This document shows positions 10,165 through 34,379 of a DNA stretch of 39,850 nt, in pieces. The translations under genes were made by a program, and so were the position numbers. Position 1 is the stretch's first letter. Each line of letters opens with the position of its first letter. The notes beneath the pieces are model-generated. The model made no database searches. It saw only the letters and a list, made by a program, of their open reading frames with translations, and was not told where the DNA came from. Origin of the DNA: a virus; IMG/VR virus record IMGVR_UViG_3300028384_000683, positions 1 through 39,850 of that record; one strand, 5' to 3'.

Positions 10165-10761
10165 TTATTTTGAATATTTTAAATTTACTTCTGCGTGCTT
10201 GGCTTCATCTTGCCTTACATACTTAATCAGATCCGATAGCTTGGCGTCTGGTAGCATGTTATAATAATCAATTGCTAACTGCGGTGCAGGTACGTCTTCT
10301 ACCTTTCCACCTTGTACTTGTTCGAGATAGGATGTGTAACTTTTTACAGCTTCGATCTCAAAGTAATGAATCATTCTATGAGCAGTCTTATCATCAACAA
10401 GATAAAGAACAGTAAAGAACCCAAAGAAGATCATCTGTGCAATTACAATCATCAACCTCTCAAACCAATTTGGTTGAGCAATCTCTATAAAGAACATTAA
10501 GTGCTTTCTTTCATTTACAGCTTCGTCTAATAACTCTTGGATCTTTTGTCCATTGCCTCTTTGCATTCTCCTAAGGGATTTCATATGCACAAGCATCCCC
10601 CCGACCATACCAGGAACACCAGCTACTGTTTCTAAAACAACAGCTCTGTGTCCATACCGTTCGGCAAAGAAAGTATCAGCTATAAATCTAAAAAACCAGG
10701 TCATTGATTTGGCAAACTTATCACGAAGCATATATATTTGTGTCCTTTTTGGAGTTGACAT
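10165..10761 (-). CDS. aox: alternative oxidase (ubiquinol:O2 oxidoreductase)
   Basis: 198-aa di-iron, membrane-associated terminal oxidase that would oxidise ubiquinol and reduce O2 to water without proton pumping. The AOX motifs are all visible: LETVAGVPGMVGGM (E44), NERKHLM (E84, H87), HYFEIEAVKSYT (E135/E137), VPAPQLAIDYY and RQDEAKHAEVN (E186, H189). So the six iron ligands are intact. It is closer in motif to bacterial and mitochondrial AOX than to the plastid-type oxidase of cyanophages. It is shorter than eukaryotic AOX, lacking the targeting leader. ATG 10761 overlaps the -35 of the divergent promoter at 10755-10783. See also the Coq4 homologue at 17201-18049. Confidence 0.92.
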   Translation of the reverse strand: MSTPKRTQIYMLRDKFAKSMTWFFRFIADTFFAERYGHRAVVLETVAGVPGMVGGMLVHMKSLRRMQRGNGQKIQELLDEAVNERKHLMFFIEIAQPNWFERLMIVIAQMIFFGFFTVLYLVDDKTAHRMIHYFEIEAVKSYTSYLEQVQGGKVEDVPAPQLAIDYYNMLPDAKLSDLIKYVRQDEAKHAEVNLKYSK

Positions 10762-18255: not shown

Positions 18256-18708
18256 TTATTCCCAAGGAAAGACGATCCAATCGTCTTCCTTCTTCTTATT
18301 TATACGTTCTCCTGAATAAGCGCAGGTGAATTTTGACGATGGCTTTTCTAATAGTACTGCAAATTTAGGCATAGGAATAAGCTGATAATAGCATTCATCC
18401 ATTACGCGTTGCAATGTTTTGCCAGAGTCATTAATGTCATCCACTATGAGAATGTTGGAATAATCTGCAAGCCTGTCCCAGTCAAACTCATTATTGTCGG
18501 CCATTCCGTCTCGTAGTGAAATATTAAGACAGTACAACTTTGCATTGTACTGATGTGAAAGTCGAACCGCCGGAACTAACCCTCCACGAGTTAGTCCGAC
18601 GATTGCGTCTGGAGTTTCTTCATCAGGGATCTGAGAAGCAATAGATGAAACAAGTTCATCATATTCACTCCAGTCGATAACTCTTCTTACAGGTTCGCTT
18701 GTACCCAT
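18256..18708 (-). CDS. phosphoribosyltransferase (type I)
   Basis: 150 aa. ILIVDDINDSGKTL (about 87-100) is the PRPP-binding motif of type I PRTases, preceded by AIVGLTRGGLVPAVRLSH (the PPi loop) and followed by AVLLEKPSS. The pattern is that of hypoxanthine/xanthine-type salvage enzymes. It would convert a free purine base plus PRPP to the nucleotide for DNA synthesis; the exact base cannot be read. ATG 18708 overlaps the peroxiredoxin stop by 22 nt. Confidence 0.85.
   Translation of the reverse strand: MGTSEPVRRVIDWSEYDELVSSIASQIPDEETPDAIVGLTRGGLVPAVRLSHQYNAKLYCLNISLRDGMADNNEFDWDRLADYSNILIVDDINDSGKTLQRVMDECYYQLIPMPKFAVLLEKPSSKFTCAYSGERINKKKEDDWIVFPWE
18297..18304 (-). promoter_or_regulatory. 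T4-type late promoter TATAAATA
   Basis: Exact TATAAATA on the minus strand, about 55 nt before ATG 18241, which also has its own AAAGGAG. It lies inside the upstream gene, as often in T4. Confidence 0.5.
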
Positions 18709-19202
18709 TTAAGAACAGCTTCAGGAGTACTAGCTTCATATGGATCAGATTCGATATTATCAACCTGTCCTTCTTCTGGGAAAGAAGCAAGTACTGTATT
18801 AGTATCACCGTCTACTACAATTGCATATCTCCAGCTTCGTGGACCGAAGTTAAGGTTACGCTTTTGTACTAGAGCACCAACATTAACAGCGAAGTCGCCA
18901 TTGCCGTCTGGTAGTGATCTTACGTTTTCAACTCCTTGTGCATCGAACCATGAGTTCATTACAAAAGGATCATTGACGCTGGTACAATAAATGTTATTGA
19001 TACCTGCTGCGACAAACTTTGAATACAACATTTCGTATCCAGGAAGTTGTTGTGAACTACAGGTTGGAGTAAACGCTCCAGGCAGTCCAAAGATTACAGC
19101 CTTCTTTCCTTTAAGTTCGGATTGAAGATTGATCGTAACAAACTCACCAGCTACTCTATCTTTGTATTTAAAGTTAGGTAGTTCAGCACCTGCCTTAATC
19201 AT
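18687..19202 (-). CDS. peroxiredoxin, Prx5/AhpE-like type
   Basis: 171-aa thioredoxin-fold peroxidase. The peroxidatic motif GLPGAFTPTCSSQQLPGYE contains C48 with its activating Pro, Thr and an Arg later (GPRSWRYAIVVD), as in Prx5. It reduces H2O2 or organic peroxides, normally with glutaredoxin or thioredoxin as partner, and a glutaredoxin is encoded 1.7 kb away. Start overlaps the previous stop as ATGA. Confidence 0.92.
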   Translation of the reverse strand: MIKAGAELPNFKYKDRVAGEFVTINLQSELKGKKAVIFGLPGAFTPTCSSQQLPGYEMLYSKFVAAGINNIYCTSVNDPFVMNSWFDAQGVENVRSLPDGNGDFAVNVGALVQKRNLNFGPRSWRYAIVVDGDTNTVLASFPEEGQVDNIESDPYEASTPEAVLKWVQANL

Positions 19203-20843: not shown

Positions 20844-21496
20844 CGGTCAGACCAAATTATTTCCTTAAATTGCTCTTTTGGAAGCCCCCAAAACCGCTGC
20901 TTCCAGTCCGATTGCTCAAAAAATGGTAAATTTTTCCATTCTTTTTGTCTTGAAAGCATCTCATGAGCGCTAATATTCCATTGTTGACGGTCTAAAGATG
21001 TAACTATTTGTTCTACTTGGGTTTTTTTCTCCAGAACTGTCGGCAGATTGAAGTCATCCCACTCAAAATGTAACAGTTCAAAGCAGTTTTCGTGGTGATC
21101 GACGTAGTCTATCGAAATATCGACGCCCCATTTAGGTGCCATCTTGGTTAGTTTATGGAAAATAGGGTGTTTTTTGGCTATTTCGTGCAGTTGTTCCAGT
21201 GCATCACCTGCAAATCCGCGTCTTTGGTAGATATCACAGTGGTTAATATGCGCTTTTTCCCTGTCTTCATCAAGGTCTACCATCCAAACCTCCTTGTTTG
21301 TGAATTTTTCACGGTGTGGTTTGGGTTCATAGCCGTTCCATTGTGCATAAACTTGCTCAACACGACACATATCGTAGCCATTTTGATCAAACAGCTCGAT
21401 TCCTTGGTGAATGATTTGATCCATATACGCATCTGGCAATGGTTGTAGCCAGTAAGGTGATGGATCATGTTGGTTTTCTGTTATCTTAAGTTGCAT
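20840..21496 (-). CDS. hypothetical protein, 218 aa
   Basis: Aromatic, acidic soluble protein starting MQLKITENQHDPSPYWLQPLP, with NKEVWMVDLDEDREKAH in the middle, CFELLHFEWDDFNLPT, and an LPFFEQSDWKQRFWGLP end. No family or catalytic motif recognised. It overlaps the preceding membrane gene by 16 nt and ends within the promoter at 20815-20843. It is the last gene of the curli/cyclase run. Confidence 0.7.
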   Translation of the reverse strand: MQLKITENQHDPSPYWLQPLPDAYMDQIIHQGIELFDQNGYDMCRVEQVYAQWNGYEPKPHREKFTNKEVWMVDLDEDREKAHINHCDIYQRRGFAGDALEQLHEIAKKHPIFHKLTKMAPKWGVDISIDYVDHHENCFELLHFEWDDFNLPTVLEKKTQVEQIVTSLDRQQWNISAHEMLSRQKEWKNLPFFEQSDWKQRFWGLPKEQFKEIIWSDR

Positions 21497-21756
21497 TTTT
21501 GCTCTGCTCTATCTATAACTTGTAAATTACTGTATACTACAAATGATGCTACTGCTATTGGAAAGATCATTTCTCTATTTGAAATCATATCTTCTTCAAA
21601 TAAGATTTCAAATGGAGCTAAAAATATTGCCTTATGTAATAATATTCTGTCTCTGTGTGGTACTCTTGGCAGTAAAGGGTTTTGCTCAACAACACAATCA
21701 TACTTCATGCCTTCTACTGTAGTCCACACATCTGCTACATGCAGTGCATAAAACAA
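21481..21756 (-). CDS. small membrane protein (start unresolved)
   Basis: The C-terminal 90 or so residues are clearly protein-like: FYALHVADVWTTVEGMKYD, then EQNPLLPRVPHRDRILLHKA, a hydrophobic FLAPFEILFE, and FPIAVASFVVYSNLQV. The D..TT..G....E.NPLL pattern is that of small multi-helix membrane proteins (DUF5658-like). The only plausible start after the cyclase stop is TTG 21756. The frame continues open to ATG 22089 inside the cyclase catalytic domain (299-nt overlap) and there reads like a signal peptide. Which start is used cannot be told. Confidence 0.5.
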   Translation of the reverse strand: MFYALHVADVWTTVEGMKYDCVVEQNPLLPRVPHRDRILLHKAIFLAPFEILFEEDMISNREMIFPIAVASFVVYSNLQVIDRAEQKCNLR

Positions 21757-21790
21757 TATTTTTACTGAATCGTACGCCGGGTCACTAATA

Positions 21791-23617
21791 TCAGACAGTG
21801 TAAATGTCGATGAGTTCTTCCTTTCCTTTAACTTTAATGCGATCGACTTTATCGAAGCTTCGGCGTGTACTGCTTCCAGCAGTGAACTGTGATAGCAACA
21901 CTCGTACCCCATCGTAATTGCGAGTTTGGCCTTCGAGTCTAGCACCGAGGTTGACGGCATCTCCAATGACGGAATAGTCAAATCGAGTTTCTGATCCCAT
22001 GTTTCCGACGATGCAATCGCCGGTATTGATACCAATACCAACGTCAATGCGAGGTAAACCTTGTTCTTCCAGTTCTTTAATGAGTTCATCTGCTGCTTCG
22101 CTTATCTCTAACGCTGCATCTATTGCTTTGTCTGCATGATCTTCACATGGTAAAGGTGCATTCCAAAAAGCCATGATACAATCGCCCATGTACTTATCAA
22201 TAGTTCCACCATTATTTAGAATAATCTCAGTCATGCGACCAAGGTACATATTGATAAGTTCTACTAAACCTTCTGGATCATCATTGTTCTTATAATGTTC
22301 TGACACTGGAGTGAAGCCACATATATCCATGAATAGGAACGTCATATTCTTTCTTTCACCGCCGAGTTTAAGTAGTGAAGGGTCTTTCTGTAATAAATAA
22401 ACTTGACGAGGATCCAAGTACGTTTCGAACTGCTTTTTTATCATTTGTTTTTGTTGGTAAGTTATAAAGTACTTGTTAAAGGACGATTGAGCAAAAACAA
22501 CCAATGAACACAGAAACAATAGCGTTATATCGAAAAATAAGAGTTCTTGGTTCCACATCCAATACGATGTGCCAATCGCGCCTCCTATTACCATTAGAGA
22601 AGCTAACGCCGCTAGAGCTGTGGGAGCGACATAAACCAACCCCAAAATTACTAATCCAACTAACACCATTGAAAAGAGCTCAGCTACTTCAGACCAATCG
22701 GGAAGTTGTATTTGAACTCCTGAAAGCAAGGTATAAATCAGATGACCTTGAACTTCGTGGGGATGTCGTGCACCCGTGGGGGTTGGTACTGGATTAGATA
22801 ATCCTTCTGCTGTAACTCCAATAACAAAAGTCTTACCTTGTGCTTGATAGTCAGGCAAATCTAAAATACTAATCTGTTCAAACTTATTCCAAAAGCTGAT
22901 AGGCAGCTGCCCGTAACTATCTGTTACGATTGGATCTTGTCTTCCCATTCTAACCCATTCAATCCCATTGGGACCTACTTTCATTTGGTAACTGGGTTCT
23001 CCTGTATACACTCTGGCAGTATCAAGGGCAAGGGATGGATATTGAGATCCCCCTGCATTGACAACAAGAGGCGCTCGTCGCACGACTCCGGTGGGTTCAT
23101 CAGGAATAGCAACGGTGGCGCCAACGCCAAAAGCAACATTAGCAAGATTATCAATGGGATATAAAAGTCCCGTAAATTTATAGGTCCAATTTTCATTTTG
23201 TTCTCCGAATAGTGCTACTCCAACATGGGATCCAACTCCGTCACTGAGTTGAGATGATGGGGCCGATGACAAAACTGTAGCTTGCTGGTACAATGCCTCG
23301 GCAAGTTTCTGGTCTTGTCCAAACCTGTCTGGCTCGCTGAATAAGATGTTAAGTACGTAAAGATTACCAGGAGGAGCGGACCCGATATAGCCAGCAAGTA
23401 TATCCCTAGGCCAGGGCCACTGACCTTCTTTAGCAATCGCTTTTTCATCAATGTTAACCAGGACGATGTCCTCAACATTATTAACTTCCTTTTGATTTTG
23501 TAATAGATCGTAATAGTTGTACGAGAGACTTTGAATAAAGCCTGGATTATTTATTTGTAGTAAAGCGAAAAGTCCGATTGTTATTAGGACTGTCCACCAT
23601 TTAGTAAAATGATTCAT
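21791..23617 (-). CDS. CHASE2 sensor-class III adenylate cyclase
   Basis: 608 aa, membrane bound. One N-terminal TM (9-22) leads into an extracytoplasmic CHASE2 domain (about 30-300; DIVLVNIDEKAIAKEGQWPWPRD is typical), then three TMs (about 314-332, 334-354, 360-378), then a class III cyclase domain (424-608). Catalytic residues are complete: metal Asp D431 (FLFMDICGFT) and D479 (KYMGDCIMAF), adenine-reading K475 and D547, transition-state N556 and R560 (AVNLGARL). The K/D pair predicts cAMP rather than cGMP. CHASE2 cyclases are often paired with FecR-domain proteins in bacteria, and a FecR protein lies two genes upstream. Very unusual cargo for a phage. Start overlaps the curlin stop as ATGA. 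Confidence 0.93.
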   Translation of the reverse strand: MNHFTKWWTVLITIGLFALLQINNPGFIQSLSYNYYDLLQNQKEVNNVEDIVLVNIDEKAIAKEGQWPWPRDILAGYIGSAPPGNLYVLNILFSEPDRFGQDQKLAEALYQQATVLSSAPSSQLSDGVGSHVGVALFGEQNENWTYKFTGLLYPIDNLANVAFGVGATVAIPDEPTGVVRRAPLVVNAGGSQYPSLALDTARVYTGEPSYQMKVGPNGIEWVRMGRQDPIVTDSYGQLPISFWNKFEQISILDLPDYQAQGKTFVIGVTAEGLSNPVPTPTGARHPHEVQGHLIYTLLSGVQIQLPDWSEVAELFSMVLVGLVILGLVYVAPTALAALASLMVIGGAIGTSYWMWNQELLFFDITLLFLCSLVVFAQSSFNKYFITYQQKQMIKKQFETYLDPRQVYLLQKDPSLLKLGGERKNMTFLFMDICGFTPVSEHYKNNDDPEGLVELINMYLGRMTEIILNNGGTIDKYMGDCIMAFWNAPLPCEDHADKAIDAALEISEAADELIKELEEQGLPRIDVGIGINTGDCIVGNMGSETRFDYSVIGDAVNLGARLEGQTRNYDGVRVLLSQFTAGSSTRRSFDKVDRIKVKGKEELIDIYTV

Positions 23618-24267
23618 TGACCTTGAGTAACACTAACTGAACATCCAGCTGGATTCAAGCAAGTGTTTGTAATTGAATAACTCTGTGCTGTTGGTCCTTG
23701 TTGAAGGAGTTGTAATGTTGTAGCATAGTCGCCTTGTAATGTTACGGTTGCTGTATGAGCTCCTGTTCCTTTTTGTAATAAATCTACTTCTGCACTGTCT
23801 GTGGATCCATAATAATAAACTGTACTATACTTGTTACCAGAACCTTCTTGCCATACATCTGTAACTGTTGAGTCTGCATGAATGTCTAGGTATGTTTCAT
23901 GTTCACCAGATCCGTCTTGGTAAATGTTAACGTCATTATAGTTGCCCCATACATGAGCACCGTATGTACCATCGCCTTCTTGAAGAATGTCTATTGTGTT
24001 GTTTGTTCCGTCAACATCACCACCCCATCCTTTACCAGATCCCCACCAAGGAACCCAAGAGATAGTATTGTTGTTACCTTTCTGTTGAAGGTTAAATGTA
24101 TTATTGTTGTGATCTAAGGAAAACTGAATTAAGTTTCCATAACCATACTGGTCAATGTTTAACTGTAAGTTGTCTCCACCTGCTGTGGTAGCTTGTTCTA
24201 TGTGTACGTGATTGTCGCCAGCATATGCTGGGATAGCAAATAATGTTAATAATAAAAATAATCTCAT
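23614..24267 (-). CDS. curlin-repeat secreted protein (major-curlin-like)
   Basis: 217 aa. Signal peptide MRLFLLLTLFAIPAYAG, then about seven Q-x-G-x(2-3)-N-type repeats (QYGYGN, QKGNNN, QEGDGT, QDGSGE, QEGSGN, QKGTGA, QQGPTA) spaced about 20-30 residues, the amyloid-forming curlin pattern. A short Cys loop (CLNPAGC) lies near the C-terminus, as in the other curlin here. ATG 24267 has GGAGG eleven bases upstream. It would be exported through CsgG (26090-27004) and form a surface fibre. Confidence 0.85.
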   Translation of the reverse strand: MRLFLLLTLFAIPAYAGDNHVHIEQATTAGGDNLQLNIDQYGYGNLIQFSLDHNNNTFNLQQKGNNNTISWVPWWGSGKGWGGDVDGTNNTIDILQEGDGTYGAHVWGNYNDVNIYQDGSGEHETYLDIHADSTVTDVWQEGSGNKYSTVYYYGSTDSAEVDLLQKGTGAHTATVTLQGDYATTLQLLQQGPTAQSYSITNTCLNPAGCSVSVTQGQ

Positions 24268-24274
24268 GTTGTAT

Positions 24275-25414
24275 TTAGCCTCCTTGTTTAATTACAATGA
24301 TGCTATCTCCACCTTCGTTGAGCAAAATGGTACCTTCATACCCATCTACATTTGTTTCTAGTCTTACAGACGCATCAATAGAGAATGCTAATCTTATAAC
24401 ACCATTAACGTCTCTATAAAAGATTACATCGCTGTCTTGTTGAAAGATATTGTATTGTGAGTCTTTATTAAAACCAACAACAGCATTTGTCAATCTTAGT
24501 TCACCAACAGTATTGTCTAATCCTTGAGATCCAAGTTTCTCAGTTGTTCTTACAAGCTCCTCTATTACATCTAAAGCATCGACTAAGAAATCTACATCAA
24601 GAAAATCAATATCAAGTTCTGTAAATTCTAACTCTCCATTGTCTGCAAGGTAATCGGTTTCTAGTTCGTTAAACTCTAAGAAGTCTACATCAAGTATTCC
24701 TTGATCAGCGTCCATTTCATCTTGATACTCTTCTACCATATCCTGTTTTACTTCTGGCGGAGGAGATACGATAAACATATTATCAATCATACTTGCTGTA
24801 ATGTTTTGTATTGTTACTGGTGTCGTTGGTGGTGAGTCTATAGTTGATACAACTGTTGCTGCATATGCATCAGTCAATGTAACTTTACCGCCTTCGTTAA
24901 ACACATCTATTATTCCAGAAGGGTTACCAAATTCATCTGGAAGGAGAACAACCAATGATCGACCTAACTCGTCAATCGTTGTAGTGAAGTCTGTACCTCT
25001 TACTTGAATGGACGCAGTGGGGGTGCTAATGTCTATATTGTTTTTGTTAACCATTCCAAGTCTGCCAGAAGCAAATCTAGCAGTACCCAATGCCATGCGC
25101 ATTGTCATTTTAGACTTGGAAGGGTTAGGGTCGTAGTAGACCTTATCAATATAGACACGTGTGTGTTCAGTAAGAGAGAGTTCAGCTTTATCGAGAAACT
25201 CGATTAGCATACGACCATTGGTCGTCTCAGCTGTGTCGTTTAATTCTATGTTTGTTTGAAGTTGAGGCACCAAGACACTACCATCTCTAGTAAGAGAAGC
25301 ATTGCCTTTTAGCTCTCGGACATCCCCTATGGGCTCAGCATAGACTGCGCCCATTAGGAAAATAAGACTAGCTGTCGCTAGAACTGTCTTTTTGATTGAT
25401 CTGGATTGTTGCAT
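24275..25414 (-). CDS. FecR-domain periplasmic protein with acidic C-terminal repeat
   Basis: 379 aa. Signal peptide to about residue 26 (LATASLIFLMGAVYA). A FecR domain spans about 30-185: GNASLTRDGS, LNDTAETTNGRMLIEFLDKAELSL, then TPTASIQVRGTDFT and the 'VFNEGGKVTL' strand. Residues 225-290 are a Leu/Phe-Asp repeat (LDVDFLEFNELETDYL, ELDIDFLDVDFL). The end (VRLETNVDGYEGTILL) is beta-like. It starts inside the upstream curlin gene (47-nt overlap). Proteins of this type neighbour CHASE2 cyclases in bacteria and may feed them a signal; here the pair brackets a curlin gene. Confidence 0.85.
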   Translation of the reverse strand: MQQSRSIKKTVLATASLIFLMGAVYAEPIGDVRELKGNASLTRDGSVLVPQLQTNIELNDTAETTNGRMLIEFLDKAELSLTEHTRVYIDKVYYDPNPSKSKMTMRMALGTARFASGRLGMVNKNNIDISTPTASIQVRGTDFTTTIDELGRSLVVLLPDEFGNPSGIIDVFNEGGKVTLTDAYAATVVSTIDSPPTTPVTIQNITASMIDNMFIVSPPPEVKQDMVEEYQDEMDADQGILDVDFLEFNELETDYLADNGELEFTELDIDFLDVDFLVDALDVIEELVRTTEKLGSQGLDNTVGELRLTNAVVGFNKDSQYNIFQQDSDVIFYRDVNGVIRLAFSIDASVRLETNVDGYEGTILLNEGGDSIIVIKQGG

Positions 25415-26093
25415 TCTCTGAATCAATATCCAATGTGATAATACCGTTACAGGTTGTTATTCCTGTTGGGCAAGTACCACTAATCATGTTAATATCAATG
25501 TCAGCTGAATCACCTACGTGTGTTAGGTTGATTTCATGCTCCGCTCCGTCAGCCATATTCGTGTTGATGTTGTTTGAGTCTCCTGTAATATCGAAGTTCC
25601 AAACTGCATCGTCGACGTCTATGTCTACATCAAAAATATTGCTGTCGCCAATAACAGCTAAATCAAAATCTAATCTTTCTGCGCTCTGATTGTAACCTTG
25701 ATCGAAATCCATCTGGTTACTTGATCCAGTAATGTCAGAATTTATATCTGAGTCATTAGAGGAACCAATGTATCCAACGTTCCAATCCCAAATGTTACTG
25801 TCACCAGTAAATCCTAACACTATTGTTGAAGTGTCAGCATCGTATTCACCAAACAATACGTTCTCGTTACCGATCTGATCAATGTCGATATTCAAAGTTG
25901 TACCTGTAATAGGCATAGCTACAGAACCAGATGAAAAGTTAGTTTTTCCAATCTTGTTACCGTAACCGTATTGATCAATGTAAAGAGTCAATGTGTCACC
26001 AACTTGTTCAATGTTGATTTCATTATCGTCTGTTGCTTGAGCAAATACTGAAGATGTAGATATGATTAATAATAGGCCTAAAATATATTTCAT
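25368..26093 (-). CDS. second curlin-like secreted repeat protein
   Basis: 241 aa. Signal peptide MKYILGLLLIISTSSVFAQ. It shares with the other curlin the opening 'I-E-Q...L.L.IDQYGYGN' and adds DIDQIGNENV, then degenerate GDSN/GSSN repeats (TGDSNIWDW, IGDSNIFDV, TGDSNNINT) and ends IQINQKD. The composition is unusually rich in Asp, Asn and Ile. A CPTGITTC loop precedes the end. It may be the nucleator (CsgB-like) or a minor subunit; that division is inference. The start overlaps the csgG stop by 4 nt as ATGA. Confidence 0.75.
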   Translation of the reverse strand: MKYILGLLLIISTSSVFAQATDDNEINIEQVGDTLTLYIDQYGYGNKIGKTNFSSGSVAMPITGTTLNIDIDQIGNENVLFGEYDADTSTIVLGFTGDSNIWDWNVGYIGSSNDSDINSDITGSSNQMDFDQGYNQSAERLDFDLAVIGDSNIFDVDIDVDDAVWNFDITGDSNNINTNMADGAEHEINLTHVGDSADIDINMISGTCPTGITTCNGIITLDIDSENATIQINQKDSSSDS

Positions 26094-27004
26094 TCTTCTT
26101 CCTCGTTTTGATTCCAATCTATCTCCCAATAACCTCGACGGTTACCTTGATAGACTAATTCCAGTACTGCAGCCTCGATAGCTGTACGTACTGCATAAGT
26201 CACCGATTCATTATTACCAACACCATCTTCATATTCTATAAGTTGTGTACCTTGTTCTATAAAACGGAACACATCTCCTCCACTGCCATAGCTAAGGATG
26301 GATTTCTTAGCTTGGACATTTAGCAATACCTCACCTGTTAAAACAGAAACTGCTCTAACTGATACAGTTACGACATCTTGGGTGTATTGTTTTGAGAAAC
26401 CAATACCTAATGTACGTGCCCCTCTACCACCAGTTTGAATATTAGTATCGTAACCAATAATACCACCCTCTATAATCATTCCTGCGAATAGAAGTGGTCC
26501 AATGTTCTTTACTTCTGTTTCAAGTTCTCTTGCTGCTGCTTCTCTTCCAGATCTAATGATTTGTCTTTCTCTTACAAGAGCATCAATCCCTTGACGTTCT
26601 ACAACACGAAACCATTTACCCTCTCCTGCTGTCTTTAGTGCATCTATCAATAGTTCTGTACCACCTTGAGTAACAGCTGTACTAAATGATTGACCTCCAG
26701 GACTGTCTTTTCTTTGCCCTGTCTTATCCATGAAGTTATATACGGCAACCACTGGCATGTTCTTTGCCGGTGGTAAATTTAACAAGTCAATGTAGGCAGG
26801 TAGCTTTACTACCTCTGGTTGTTCAATACAAATTAAATTAGATGCGTAATATTTTCTTACGCCTGTATAGATATCTTTGCTCCATCCCTCATCAAACTGT
26901 CCTGTCTCATAAGCACAGTTGGCTGGTCCTTCGGACCATTGAGGCATAGAGGAACAACTTGCTAGTAGTAGAATACTAGCCGTCGTCAGAGCCGCCTTGA
27001 TCAT
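26090..27004 (-). CDS. csgG: CsgG-like curli export lipoprotein
   Basis: 304 aa. Lipoprotein signal with lipobox LLLAS-C17, followed by a Ser, consistent with outer-membrane sorting. The CsgG core is clear: MPVVAVYNFMDKTGQRK, GGTELLIDALKTAGEGKWFRVVERQG, IIRSGREAAAR, LLFAGMIIEGGIIGYDTN, RTLGIGF, then VRAVSVLTGEVLLNVQAKKSI and the C-terminal AIEAAVLELV helix. It forms the outer-membrane secretion pore for curlins. I choose ATG 27004 because GGAGG lies eight bases upstream; ATG 27010 or 27019 are alternatives. Confidence 0.95.
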   Translation of the reverse strand: MIKAALTTASILLLASCSSMPQWSEGPANCAYETGQFDEGWSKDIYTGVRKYYASNLICIEQPEVVKLPAYIDLLNLPPAKNMPVVAVYNFMDKTGQRKDSPGGQSFSTAVTQGGTELLIDALKTAGEGKWFRVVERQGIDALVRERQIIRSGREAAARELETEVKNIGPLLFAGMIIEGGIIGYDTNIQTGGRGARTLGIGFSKQYTQDVVTVSVRAVSVLTGEVLLNVQAKKSILSYGSGGDVFRFIEQGTQLIEYEDGVGNNESVTYAVRTAIEAAVLELVYQGNRRGYWEIDWNQNEEEE

Positions 27005-27488
27005 CGACATCGCCTCCATAATATCCAGTGCCTACTGGGATCTTAATAACTGTTTCTGAACCAAACTCATCAACAATTGTTAACTGAATAAAGTCAGGTT
27101 GTCCTTCTGCTCCTGTAATGATCTCCCATGTGATAACAGAACCTTCCATTTCGAAGGATCCAAATGTTGACGGATCGTCATTACTGAACATTGTGTCTAC
27201 TAATTGTTTAGCAAACTGAGCATAGATTCTGCTCTCTAGGTTTCGGATGAATTTTGCTAACGTCGAATTTTCTGCTTCTCTTTCCGCAGCTCTCCTTGCC
27301 GCATCCAATGCATCCTTGATTGCCTTCTCTCTTTGAAACTCTTGGTTCTCAATTGTTAAATAATGAGCACCAGTCCCCACGCCACTGAAGCTAGGGTTTT
27401 TAAACTTGTGAACAATGTCTGCATTAACGATCATTGGAAAAGCCATTAAGGCTGATACAAACATTCCAAACGCAAACGCTTTCATCAT
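26976..27488 (-). CDS. csgF: CsgF-like curli assembly factor
   Basis: 170 aa. Signal peptide (MMKAFAFGMFVSALMAFPMIVNA), then the CsgF N-terminal motif FKNPSFSGVGTGAHYLTIENQE that in E. coli inserts into the CsgG pore, followed by a helix (EKAIKDALDAARRAAERE) and a beta domain (GSVITWEIITG, FIQLTIVDEFG). It anchors and nucleates fibres at the cell surface. No CsgE or CsgD is present. Start ATG 27488 lies five nt after the upstream stop; the frame extending to 27554 is run-over. Confidence 0.88.
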   Translation of the reverse strand: MMKAFAFGMFVSALMAFPMIVNADIVHKFKNPSFSGVGTGAHYLTIENQEFQREKAIKDALDAARRAAEREAENSTLAKFIRNLESRIYAQFAKQLVDTMFSNDDPSTFGSFEMEGSVITWEIITGAEGQPDFIQLTIVDEFGSETVIKIPVGTGYYGGDVDDQGGSDDG

Positions 27489-27492
27489 ATCT

Positions 27493-27780
27493 TTACTTGT
27501 CCAAATCTGAGGACCCATTTGATCCTTCAATATCTTTCTTTCGCTCTTTGTCATTCTTATACCTCAACACAACATTAACCTTTTGTTGTAATCTTATTAA
27601 GTCTTGATCTAACATTCTATTTTGATCAATAACTTTTATTAGAGCCAAATGCATTTCTTCAATTGCTGGCTCTAGTTTATTACCCACAAACCACCATATG
27701 TAGTAAATGAAATAACCCATACCGATTGACATAACAACTGGAAGACCAAATTCATTTATAAGAACTGCAATATCTTCCAT
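27493..27780 (-). CDS. small TM plus coiled-coil protein, 95 aa
   Basis: ATG 27780 follows AAGGAGAGATTG and overlaps the previous stop as TGATG. One N-terminal TM (VVMSIGMGYFIYYIWWFV, about 14-33), then a coiled coil (IEEMHLALIKVIDQNRML...LQQKVNVVL) and a polar tail. The layout resembles UviB/BhlA-like holin-type proteins, but it sits directly upstream of csgF, so a curli-linked role is equally possible. Confidence 0.7.
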   Translation of the reverse strand: MEDIAVLINEFGLPVVMSIGMGYFIYYIWWFVGNKLEPAIEEMHLALIKVIDQNRMLDQDLIRLQQKVNVVLRYKNDKERKKDIEGSNGSSDLDK

Positions 27781-28073
27781 CAATCTCTCCTTGCGTCAAT
27801 TGAACCATCTTCGATAAAGTTTTCAGCTCTAGCAATCCTGTTAACATCAGGCGGTAAGTCTAGCGACTGGGAAACCAAAGTATCGATCTTGATCAACTCG
27901 TTGTTCATGGTTCTAGCTCTTGTCTCGAGCATAGTACAAAACGTAGTCAAGGTTTTGAGATCATCAACCAAGCCATCTAATATTTGTTTAAGTACGATGA
28001 ATATGAAGATTCCCATCACGACGGCTGCCGCAATCGAGGTCCCCACATCTCGAATCAGTTCAAAAGCGTCCAT
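27780..28073 (-). CDS. small TM plus coiled-coil protein, 97 aa
   Basis: Sister in layout to the next gene: one TM at about 13-31 (SIAAAVVMGIFIFIVLKQI), then a helical coiled segment (LVDDLKTLTTFCTMLETRARTMNNELIKIDTL). It starts five bases after a CCTAAATA late-like box, with no Shine-Dalgarno. It may head the curli run. Function unknown. Confidence 0.65.
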   Translation of the reverse strand: MDAFELIRDVGTSIAAAVVMGIFIFIVLKQILDGLVDDLKTLTTFCTMLETRARTMNNELIKIDTLVSQSLDLPPDVNRIARAENFIEDGSIDARRD

Positions 28074-28922: not shown

Positions 28923-29183
28923 TTATATTGCCTGGTTGTCTAGGTTATCTTGAATTGTATTTTGCATCTCTTCGGCACCTTCCCACATCATACAAGCAGT
29001 AAGATCAGATCTAGGATCAGTATGCATAAGAGTAATTAGTGATTGCATATTGGTAGGTATAGCTTCGCCCTCCGTATGACGGACGATAGTCAATATTGGT
29101 TTATCAACGTTTACTGGTACGACTTGAGCTATGAAAGCAGTCGAGTTGATTGTAGCGTAATGAGATGCTTCTGTGATTATCAT
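28923..29183 (-). CDS. hypothetical protein, 86 aa, late
   Basis: Starts MIITEASHYATINSTAFIAQVV, then a VNVDKPILTIVRHTEGE strand region and an acidic helical C-terminus. The exact TATAAATA late box lies five bases before ATG 29183, and there is no Shine-Dalgarno, so translation from a leaderless late mRNA is predicted. Unrecognised. Confidence 0.65.
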   Translation of the reverse strand: MIITEASHYATINSTAFIAQVVPVNVDKPILTIVRHTEGEAIPTNMQSLITLMHTDPRSDLTACMMWEGAEEMQNTIQDNLDNQAI

Positions 29184-29188
29184 AAAGG

Positions 29189-29196
29189 TATTTATA
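29189..29196 (-). promoter_or_regulatory. T4-type late promoter TATAAATA, leaderless type
   Basis: Exact TATAAATA, then CCTTT and ATG 29183. In T4 spacing the +1 base is the A of the ATG. Confidence 0.7.
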
Positions 29197-32846: not shown

Positions 32847-33183
32847 CTAATAGTGTCTGTACAAGATTCCTAATTAGGAATAAAAGTCCGAAGCTATTTA
32901 GTATAATTAGAGCTCTGTCCCTCCACATAATGGAAACACCAAGCCAACCAGCAATACCAATAACAGATAAACTGAGGTCCCAAAGCGCAAGCTCTGGGAC
33001 ACCTCTAATAGACATTGCCGCAAGTACAACAGCAGAGCTGAACCATTTAAGGTACCAGTCTGGCGTGTACTTTGGAGTCGCACTCTTGAAGATTCGATCG
33101 GACCTAAGTTTAGGTACGGCCTTTAACTCTTCAGGTTTAAACTCAATGTTGCTTTTTAATATTTTATCTTTTGGCGGTGTCAA
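32842..33183 (-). CDS. membrane protein, 113 aa, TTG start
   Basis: The N-terminal 45 residues are hydrophilic ([19 protein letters not shown]). Then come three hydrophobic segments: [29 protein letters not shown], and [17 protein letters not shown] 33183 overlaps the isocitrate lyase stop and has AGGAAC seven bases upstream; there is no ATG that would keep the N-terminal domain. It is coupled to isocitrate lyase. Function unknown. Confidence 0.65.
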
Positions 33184-34379
33184 AATTGTTCCTGTTCTGT
33201 AGAGTCAGCTAATGCAGTAACACTATCATTACCTAATGCTTGACTGATTGCATCAAAGTATCCAACACCAACTTCTCGTTGATGCTTGCTTGATGTAAAG
33301 CCTTTTTCCCTTGCAAGAATTTCTTTCTCTTGCAGATCACTAAATGCTTTCATACCATATTGTCTATAACGATCTGCAAAATCAAACACTGCATAGTTAG
33401 TAGCATGGAAGCCAGCTAGTGTAATGAACTGAAACTTAAATCCAAGTTTACTGAGGTCCCTTTGGAAAGCAAGTAGACCGGTATGACCTAAATGCTCAGA
33501 CCATCTAAACGAAGGCGAACAGTTGTAGGCCAACATTGCGTTTGGATTAGCTGCACGAACTCCATCAGCCCAGTACTTAGCTTCTTTGAGACATGGCTTA
33601 GATGTTTCGCACCAAATGAGATCTGCATATTCTGAGTATGCTTGACCTCGTTCGACACAATAGTCTAACCCACCGTTGATCTCATAGAACCCTTCTGCTG
33701 TTCGTTTTCCATTACAAAACTTTTTGTCGATGTCGTCGACATCGTTTGATAACAACTTAGCTGATTCAGCATCTGTCCTTGCGATGACCAAGGTATCTGT
33801 TCCTGCCACGTCTGAAGCAAGGCGAGCAGCATTAAGATTACGAATAGCTTGTGAAGTAGGGATAAGAACTTTGCCTCCCAAGTGTCCGCATTTCTTTTCG
33901 CTTGCCAATTGGTCTTCAAAGTGGACAGCAGCCGCTCCGGCTTCGATAAGATTTCTTGCAAGTTCATAACTGTTTAAAGCTCCTCCAAATCCTGCTTCCG
34001 CGTCTGCGATGATAGGTGCAAAACTAAAACCTCGGTCACCTTCTGCAACTGAGATTTGGTCAGCACGACGGAAAGCATTATTAATGTTACGAACAACGTT
34101 GGGCACAGAAGAAACACTATATAGAGACTGATCAGGAAATACTTGATCGTCTGAATTGTTTGCTGCAGCAACTTGCCAACCGCTAACATAGATTGCTTTA
34201 AGTCCTGCTTTAACTTGCTGTACTGCTTGTTGTCCATTATACGCACCAAATGCTTGAACGTAGTCTTCGTTCTCTAGTAGATCCCGTAACTTACGAGCCC
34301 CCAGTCTAGCTAGAGTATGATCGATCTGTACAGATCCTTTTAATTTTAGGACATCGTCCTCACTGTAAATCCTCTTCAT
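33180..34379 (-). CDS. aceA: isocitrate lyase
   Basis: 399 aa. Cleaves isocitrate to glyoxylate and succinate (glyoxylate shunt). The family motifs are intact: [43 protein letters not shown] (metal Asp), [19 protein letters not shown] with the catalytic K-K-C164-[22 protein letters not shown] and [11 protein letters not shown]. The end ([14 protein letters not shown]) also matches bacterial enzymes. It is a little shorter than E. coli AceA (434 aa), without the 6-residue insert after FRRADQI and part of the N-terminus. ATG 34379 has CAGGAATCA upstream. No malate synthase is in the window. It looks recently and well conserved, so probably active. Confidence 0.97.

Follow-up and report, generated by a model that had tools for sequence, protein, structure and literature searches.

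Curli genes in pelagiphages were found in PMC7029224, and a role in lysis has been proposed for their pore in PMC9004378; PMC9599517, published in 2022, placed a FecR-domain gene and an adenylate cyclase gene in the phage curli cluster, assigned them an alphaproteobacterial origin and reported that the cluster is headed by a histidine kinase. Selected passages of these three papers describe neither a CHASE2 domain nor overprinting. In bacteria, the CHASE2 cyclases of Campylobacterota are clustered with a FecR-domain protein in a CHASE2-AC/FecR/TPR/phosphodiesterase arrangement (PMC9239204), and CyaD1 of Sinorhizobium meliloti is reported to make cAMP constitutively once its CHASE2 domain is missing (PMC5498481). 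Antisense genes that overlap older genes have been described in bacteria and viruses (PMC7457138, PMC7017920), including Escherichia coli (PMC9927249).

Here we describe a phage cyclase gene that shares its domain order with both S. meliloti CyaD1 and the Campylobacterota enzymes, and that carries two further open reading frames, one on either strand. The window, by which we mean the whole stretch of DNA analysed, is a virus record of 39,850 bases from IMG/VR, and the features discussed are collected in Table 1. We consider it very likely, judging from sequence comparison and predicted structures, that phages acquired a CHASE2 cyclase gene once from bacteria, that its product is probably active and belongs to a curli module, and that the gene was afterwards overprinted twice.

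Table 1. Positions of the cyclase gene, its overprinted frames and the adjoining curli module in the window
Feature	Position	Strand	Evidence or remark
DUF5658-like gene	21481..22089	minus	first 299 nt (21791-22089) overlap cyclase 3' end, frame +1
CHASE2-TM-class III adenylate cyclase gene, 608 aa	21791..23617	minus	Pfam, AF2, residue alignment
Class III catalytic domain, residues 423-602; D431, K475, D479, S549, N556, R560	21812..22351	minus	Pfam, alignment
AATAAATA, late-promoter-like motif upstream of antisense ORF	22392..22399	plus	
Antisense overprinted ORF, 97 aa, opposite cyclase codons 274-371	22504..22797	plus	
CHASE2 sensor domain, residues 17-323, predicted periplasmic	22649..23569	minus	Pfam 1.9e-35
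Curlin-repeat protein	23614..24267	minus	Pfam Curlin_rpt 1.3e-5
FecR-domain protein	24275..25426	minus	Pfam FecR 1.3e-8
Curlin-repeat-like protein	25368..26129	minus	Curlin_rpt 0.0016, 18.8 bits, below cut-off 20.7; conserved position
CsgG, outer-membrane curli secretion pore	26090..27019	minus	Pfam CsgG 4.1e-53
CsgF	26976..27554	minus	Pfam CsgF 7.8e-12
Small protein, N-terminal hydrophobic segment, first of pair (PHROG 18771)	27493..27783	minus	
Small protein, N-terminal hydrophobic segment, second of pair (PHROG 18771)	27780..28073	minus	
ATAAATA motif, 6 nt upstream of ORF 28923-29183 that precedes the module	29189..29195	minus	

The cyclase as last gene of a curli module

The original prediction of a membrane cyclase gene had left out the strand; the open reading frame exists and lies on the minus strand. 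Pfam and AF2 bear out its description of a virus-encoded protein that has a full-length CHASE2 sensor, a transmembrane bundle and a class III active site that is complete. The CHASE2 and Guanylate_cyc matches (the latter at 2.7e-19) are both well over the Pfam cut-off, and the AF2 model, built with 32 sequences, has a mean pLDDT of 89 and a pTM of 0.72. Helices are predicted at residues 7-23 and, forming the transmembrane bundle, at residues 308-330, 333-358 and 365-397. The protein thus presents the succession typical of a CHASE2 receptor, in which the sensor is followed by transmembrane helices and these by an output domain.

The genes next to the cyclase all point in one direction and run TM-TM-CsgF-CsgG-curlin-FecR-curlin-cyclase, so that csgF, csgG, curlin, fecR and cyclase genes follow one another in this order in the window. 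An identical order is found in Pelagibacter phage HTVC008M, in Methylophilales phage Melnitz and in those IMG/VR loci that cover the whole module, and wherever the contig is long enough the cyclase is accompanied by FecR and curlin genes. The cyclases of HTVC008M and Melnitz are 45% and 35% identical to the one in the window, and both phages are without either overprinted frame. In contrast to the cluster as described in PMC9599517, the module in the window has no histidine kinase match at its head: Pfam finds no kinase domain in the PHROG 18771 pair. The motif ATAAATA, which we take to be a T4-like late-promoter-like motif, occurs no more than 150 nt upstream of the first gene of the module in 44 of 49 loci (4.1 expected).

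These neighbours bear on how the cyclase is used. The gene had been proposed as an auxiliary metabolic gene of a kind rarely reported in phages, and neither its rarity nor its isolation holds: annotated copies exist in HTVC008M and Melnitz, relatives occur in at least 600 IMG/VR stretches, and the cyclase, which is the last gene of a published curli-secretion module, is already known as a member of that cluster from the 2022 paper (PMC9599517). A stand-alone enzyme used by a lytic phage to increase cAMP in its host and reprogram metabolism would agree with the intact active-site residues and with the lack of a PF00027 cyclic-nucleotide receptor in all 12 phage records, which implies that cAMP, if made, has to act on proteins of the host. 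However, where the contig suffices the cyclase is kept only together with the module, and its fixed order with FecR, curlin, csgF and csgG indicates that its role is probably tied to the module, so that we regard a stand-alone metabolic role as unlikely.

The bacterial relatives show a different neighbourhood. A FecR gene is present within the fetched locus of 30 of 80 bacterial CHASE2 cyclases, whereas curli genes adjoin none of the 80 in these loci, and because of this difference the pairing of FecR and cyclase seems older than the union of this pair with curli. A transfer of the whole module from bacteria as one operon was rejected, given the lack of curli genes next to these 80 relatives.

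An antisense frame under the transmembrane region

Both frames overprinted on the cyclase gene were missed by the original prediction. Homologues of the frame on the opposite strand, about 100 codons long, are conserved in 64 of the 82 cyclase genes from phages, and the corresponding frame -1 is open in 35 of the 48 loci of the non-redundant set, where 2.7 would be expected. We defined open and closed loci by stops in codons 300-366, and the start codon, Shine-Dalgarno (SD) sequence and promoter-like motif of the antisense frame fall outside the codons used for this grouping. The antisense strand has an ATG at cyclase codon 367 in 54 of the 82 loci (15.1 expected), the strong SD sequence GGAGG or AGGAG just upstream of this ATG in 34 (1.7 expected), and ATAAATA upstream of the frame in 61 (6.7 expected); in 59 of these 61 the motif takes the form GATAAATA, and its distance to the ATG is exactly 95 nt. 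ATG, motif and open frame co-occur in 53 loci and are jointly missing in 17. Such counts depend on one another because the loci share ancestry, and wherever it could the analysis relied on disjoint pairs and non-redundant sets; all four signals are found together in 25 of 48 non-redundant loci (0.0 expected) and in 12 of 28 loci of a set below 75% identity (0.01 expected).

The protein read from this frame contains conserved motifs, among them LSPxELWE and SRIVVFELL, and AF2 predicts a core at residues 30-97 with a pLDDT of about 82-92 (pTM 0.58). Amino-acid replacements read in frame -1 are of a more conservative kind in the antisense zone only, with a BLOSUM62 score of -0.41 vs -1.11, -1.14 and -0.83. 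No significant relative was found in Pfam, PHROGs, PDB sequences, phage records, PDB folds or viral folds, and there is no stand-alone copy among the best 80 IMG/VR profile matches, all of which lie opposite a cyclase. The start codon, SD sequence and promoter-like motif of its own are present in relatives; in the window the frame is open and the motif is present, the ATG at 22504 is off the common position, and AAAGGA lies about 20 nt upstream, with no well-placed SD sequence.

We read ATAAATA as late-promoter-like here because it also precedes the first gene of the module. No sigma-70-like -10/-35 sequence stood out upstream of the antisense gene. The presence of ATAAATA on the antisense strand in most loci would also suit a scenario in which transcription rather than a protein matters, with an RNA driven from the motif damping cyclase expression, but such an RNA would have no need of an open frame, an SD sequence, an ATG and conservative replacements, and since the sense module begins with the same motif both strands would be active together. 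An effect of the RNA alone is in our opinion distinctly unlikely, and a switch from early to late expression between the two strands was dropped on account of the shared motif. A protein-coding antisense gene is similar to the antisense genes of bacteria and viruses in lying inside an older gene. Unlike those, this one lies in an acquired accessory gene of phages and is kept across cyclases that are about 50% identical, its promoter-like motif, SD sequence and start codon are conserved, and it is joined by a second overprint on the sense strand.

The catalytic domain and the frame across its 3' end

The catalytic domain of the AF2 model matches CyaB (3r5g) with a TM score of 0.88 on the target and CyaC (1wc1) with 0.85, the outcome of a structure check that had been suggested with the original prediction. 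D431, K475, D479, N556 and R560 sit at the positions given there, and the Guanylate_cyc domain carries the metal-binding Asp pair (D431 and D479) and the transition-state residues (N556 and R560) of class III cyclases. The residue named for base recognition, D547, is present and was mis-assigned: the count of N-7 from the invariant Asn and the alignment with CyaB (MDYTIIG) and OaPAC (RDYTILG) lead to S549, and because the recognition Thr of CyaB and OaPAC aligns with S549 the base-recognition pair is K475/S549. The proposed Lys/Asp pair is thus replaced, while ATP is still the likely substrate, with K475 pointing to it. CyaB, CyaC and OaPAC (5x4t) have the catalytic fold and the Lys, metal and Arg residues in common with the phage cyclase, which differs from CyaB and OaPAC in having Ser rather than Thr as the second recognition residue, and from all three in its CHASE2 sensor.

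A catalytically dead or cGMP-making enzyme might be suspected from residue 549, which is Ser and not Thr or Asp, and from the change N556S in four phages and D431Y in one phage relative. Against this, K475, D479 and R560 are kept in 82 of 82 phage relatives and are also invariant in 80 bacterial relatives (D431 is kept in 81 and N556 in 78 of the 82), the guanylyl cyclase Cya2 has Glu where K475 aligns, and residue 549 is Ser in 58 of the 80 bacterial CHASE2 cyclases and Thr in the other 22. A dead or cGMP-making cyclase is for these reasons very unlikely, and the enzyme is probably catalytically competent and ATP-specific. In the four phage cyclases with N556S, from loci L003 (Melnitz), L013, L016 and L019, this change of the active site is linked with S549D.

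The 3' part of the catalytic domain is also read in frame +1, as the beginning of the DUF5658-like gene, whose protein matches Pfam PF18902 at an E-value of 0.004 and 18.3 bits, below the cut-off of 25.2. Over codons 515-600, which define open and closed loci for this frame, there are 0.04 stops per locus in frame +1 compared to 6.65 expected from synonymous shuffles, and 70 of 71 loci are open in a set that was chosen for having the overlap. When all loci are considered the frame is open in 70 of 82, and in 37 of 48 when redundancy is removed (0.0 expected). In translation the N-terminus resembles a signal peptide, with a best 12-residue hydropathy that averages 2.42 vs 0.60 in shuffles; the corresponding values for loci without the overlap are 1.58 and 0.57. 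The DUF5658 part alone gave no match in phage records. The DUF5658 profile also matches inside bacterial cyclase genes, and we set these matches aside as a product of conserved cyclase motifs in their +1 reading. In L013, L016 and L019 the cyclase is longer, and the DUF5658-like gene begins at its end, where it has its own start resembling a signal peptide.

Synonymous variation follows the state of each frame. Loci with an open +1 frame have a synonymous difference of 0.25 in the overlap vs 0.34-0.37 elsewhere, and the 12 loci in which it is closed have 0.58 vs 0.50-0.56. Codons 261-360, which lie in the part of the gene for the end of CHASE2 and the transmembrane bundle, make up another zone with little synonymous variation, in which stops rule out frames +1, +2, -0 and -2 as the cause of the constraint; here antisense-open loci show 0.19 in the zone vs 0.35-0.39 elsewhere, and the 18 antisense-closed loci 0.36 vs 0.36-0.44. 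The normal variation in the closed loci argues against membrane-protein codon usage as the cause. In the clade of the window the constraint on this zone is present as well, though weaker (0.30 vs 0.43-0.49, from three pairs). Judged by these patterns of substitution and stops, both overprinted frames are under coding selection. That the low variation stems instead from an RNA or DNA element or from codon selection in transmembrane segments, as the unusual codon make-up of hydrophobic segments and some nucleotide-level signal at ATAAATA might suggest, has little chance of being correct, since the constraint is gone wherever the alternate frame is closed, stops and conservative replacements are frame-specific, and the constraint accompanies an ATG, an SD sequence, a promoter-like motif and a confident predicted fold.

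Probable origin within phages and proposed role

In the phylogenetic tree the phage cyclases form one clade with a support of 100, and the states of the frames require four changes for antisense and five for +1. A single gain followed by about three losses would account for the antisense states. Unlike the phage genes, bacterial CHASE2 cyclases of low GC content have no overprinted frames: both are broken in 17 of 17 such homologues, by 6-16 antisense stops and 4-13 stops in frame +1. Because the phage clade is single and these homologues are broken by stops, both overprints seem to have arisen inside phages.

This history can be combined with the gene order in a model. A bacterial gene for a CHASE2 class III cyclase would have been acquired once by phages, where it would serve as the sensor and output gene of their curli (type VIII secretion) module. 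CsgG and CsgF may form the outer-membrane pore, with the curlin proteins as cargo, and the FecR-domain protein and the periplasmic CHASE2 domain may read the state of the envelope or of secretion and set the synthesis of cAMP, which would act on receptors of the host. Downstream, the DUF5658-like membrane gene would have gained a new N-terminus, including the signal-peptide-like stretch, inside the cyclase 3' end, and an antisense gene of about 100 codons may have arisen once under the transmembrane region, with a late-promoter-like motif and SD sequence of its own and a small folded protein as its product. Points that weigh against this picture are the shared ancestry of the loci, the failure to find relatives of the antisense protein in the databases searched, the missing antisense frame in HTVC008M and Melnitz, the poorly defined antisense start throughout the clade of the window, the lack of a PF00027 receptor in the 12 phage records, and the substitutions at N556, S549 and D431 in a few phages. 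We think it likely that in marine T4-like phages one acquired gene thus came to encode a cyclase, a DUF5658-like membrane protein with an N-terminus born in frame +1, and a de novo antisense late protein, born once within phages and served by its own promoter and ribosome site.

Searches of a collection of open-access papers, together with selected passages of the phage papers, turned up nothing on overprinting of a phage cyclase gene, and within that scope two further proteins in the cyclase gene, one of them on the opposite strand, seem not to have been noticed before. The locus offers a well-dated case in which genes were born on either strand of a single acquired gene, and bacterial outgroups without the frames and phage relatives that lost them make it a natural experiment in de novo gene origin. 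Standard gene callers are likely to pass over both frames, so that late proteins of common marine phages may have gone unannotated, and mutating the cyclase gene may disturb two other products.

Other genes in the window, all on the minus strand, include an alternative oxidase gene (10165-10761, Pfam AOX 1.8e-67), whose sole match in the phage collection is from Phage C48C1 at 60% identity, and an isocitrate lyase gene (33180-34379, Pfam ICL 2.9e-86), whose product is 68% identical to a 'hypothetical' protein of the same phage; C48C1 thus carries an alternative oxidase as well. By eye, the translations of 18687-19202 and 18256-18708 resemble a peroxiredoxin and a phosphoribosyltransferase, respectively. 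ATAAATA is found on the minus strand at 2740, 10764, 29189 and 32839, in each case 3-79 nt upstream of the start of an open reading frame.
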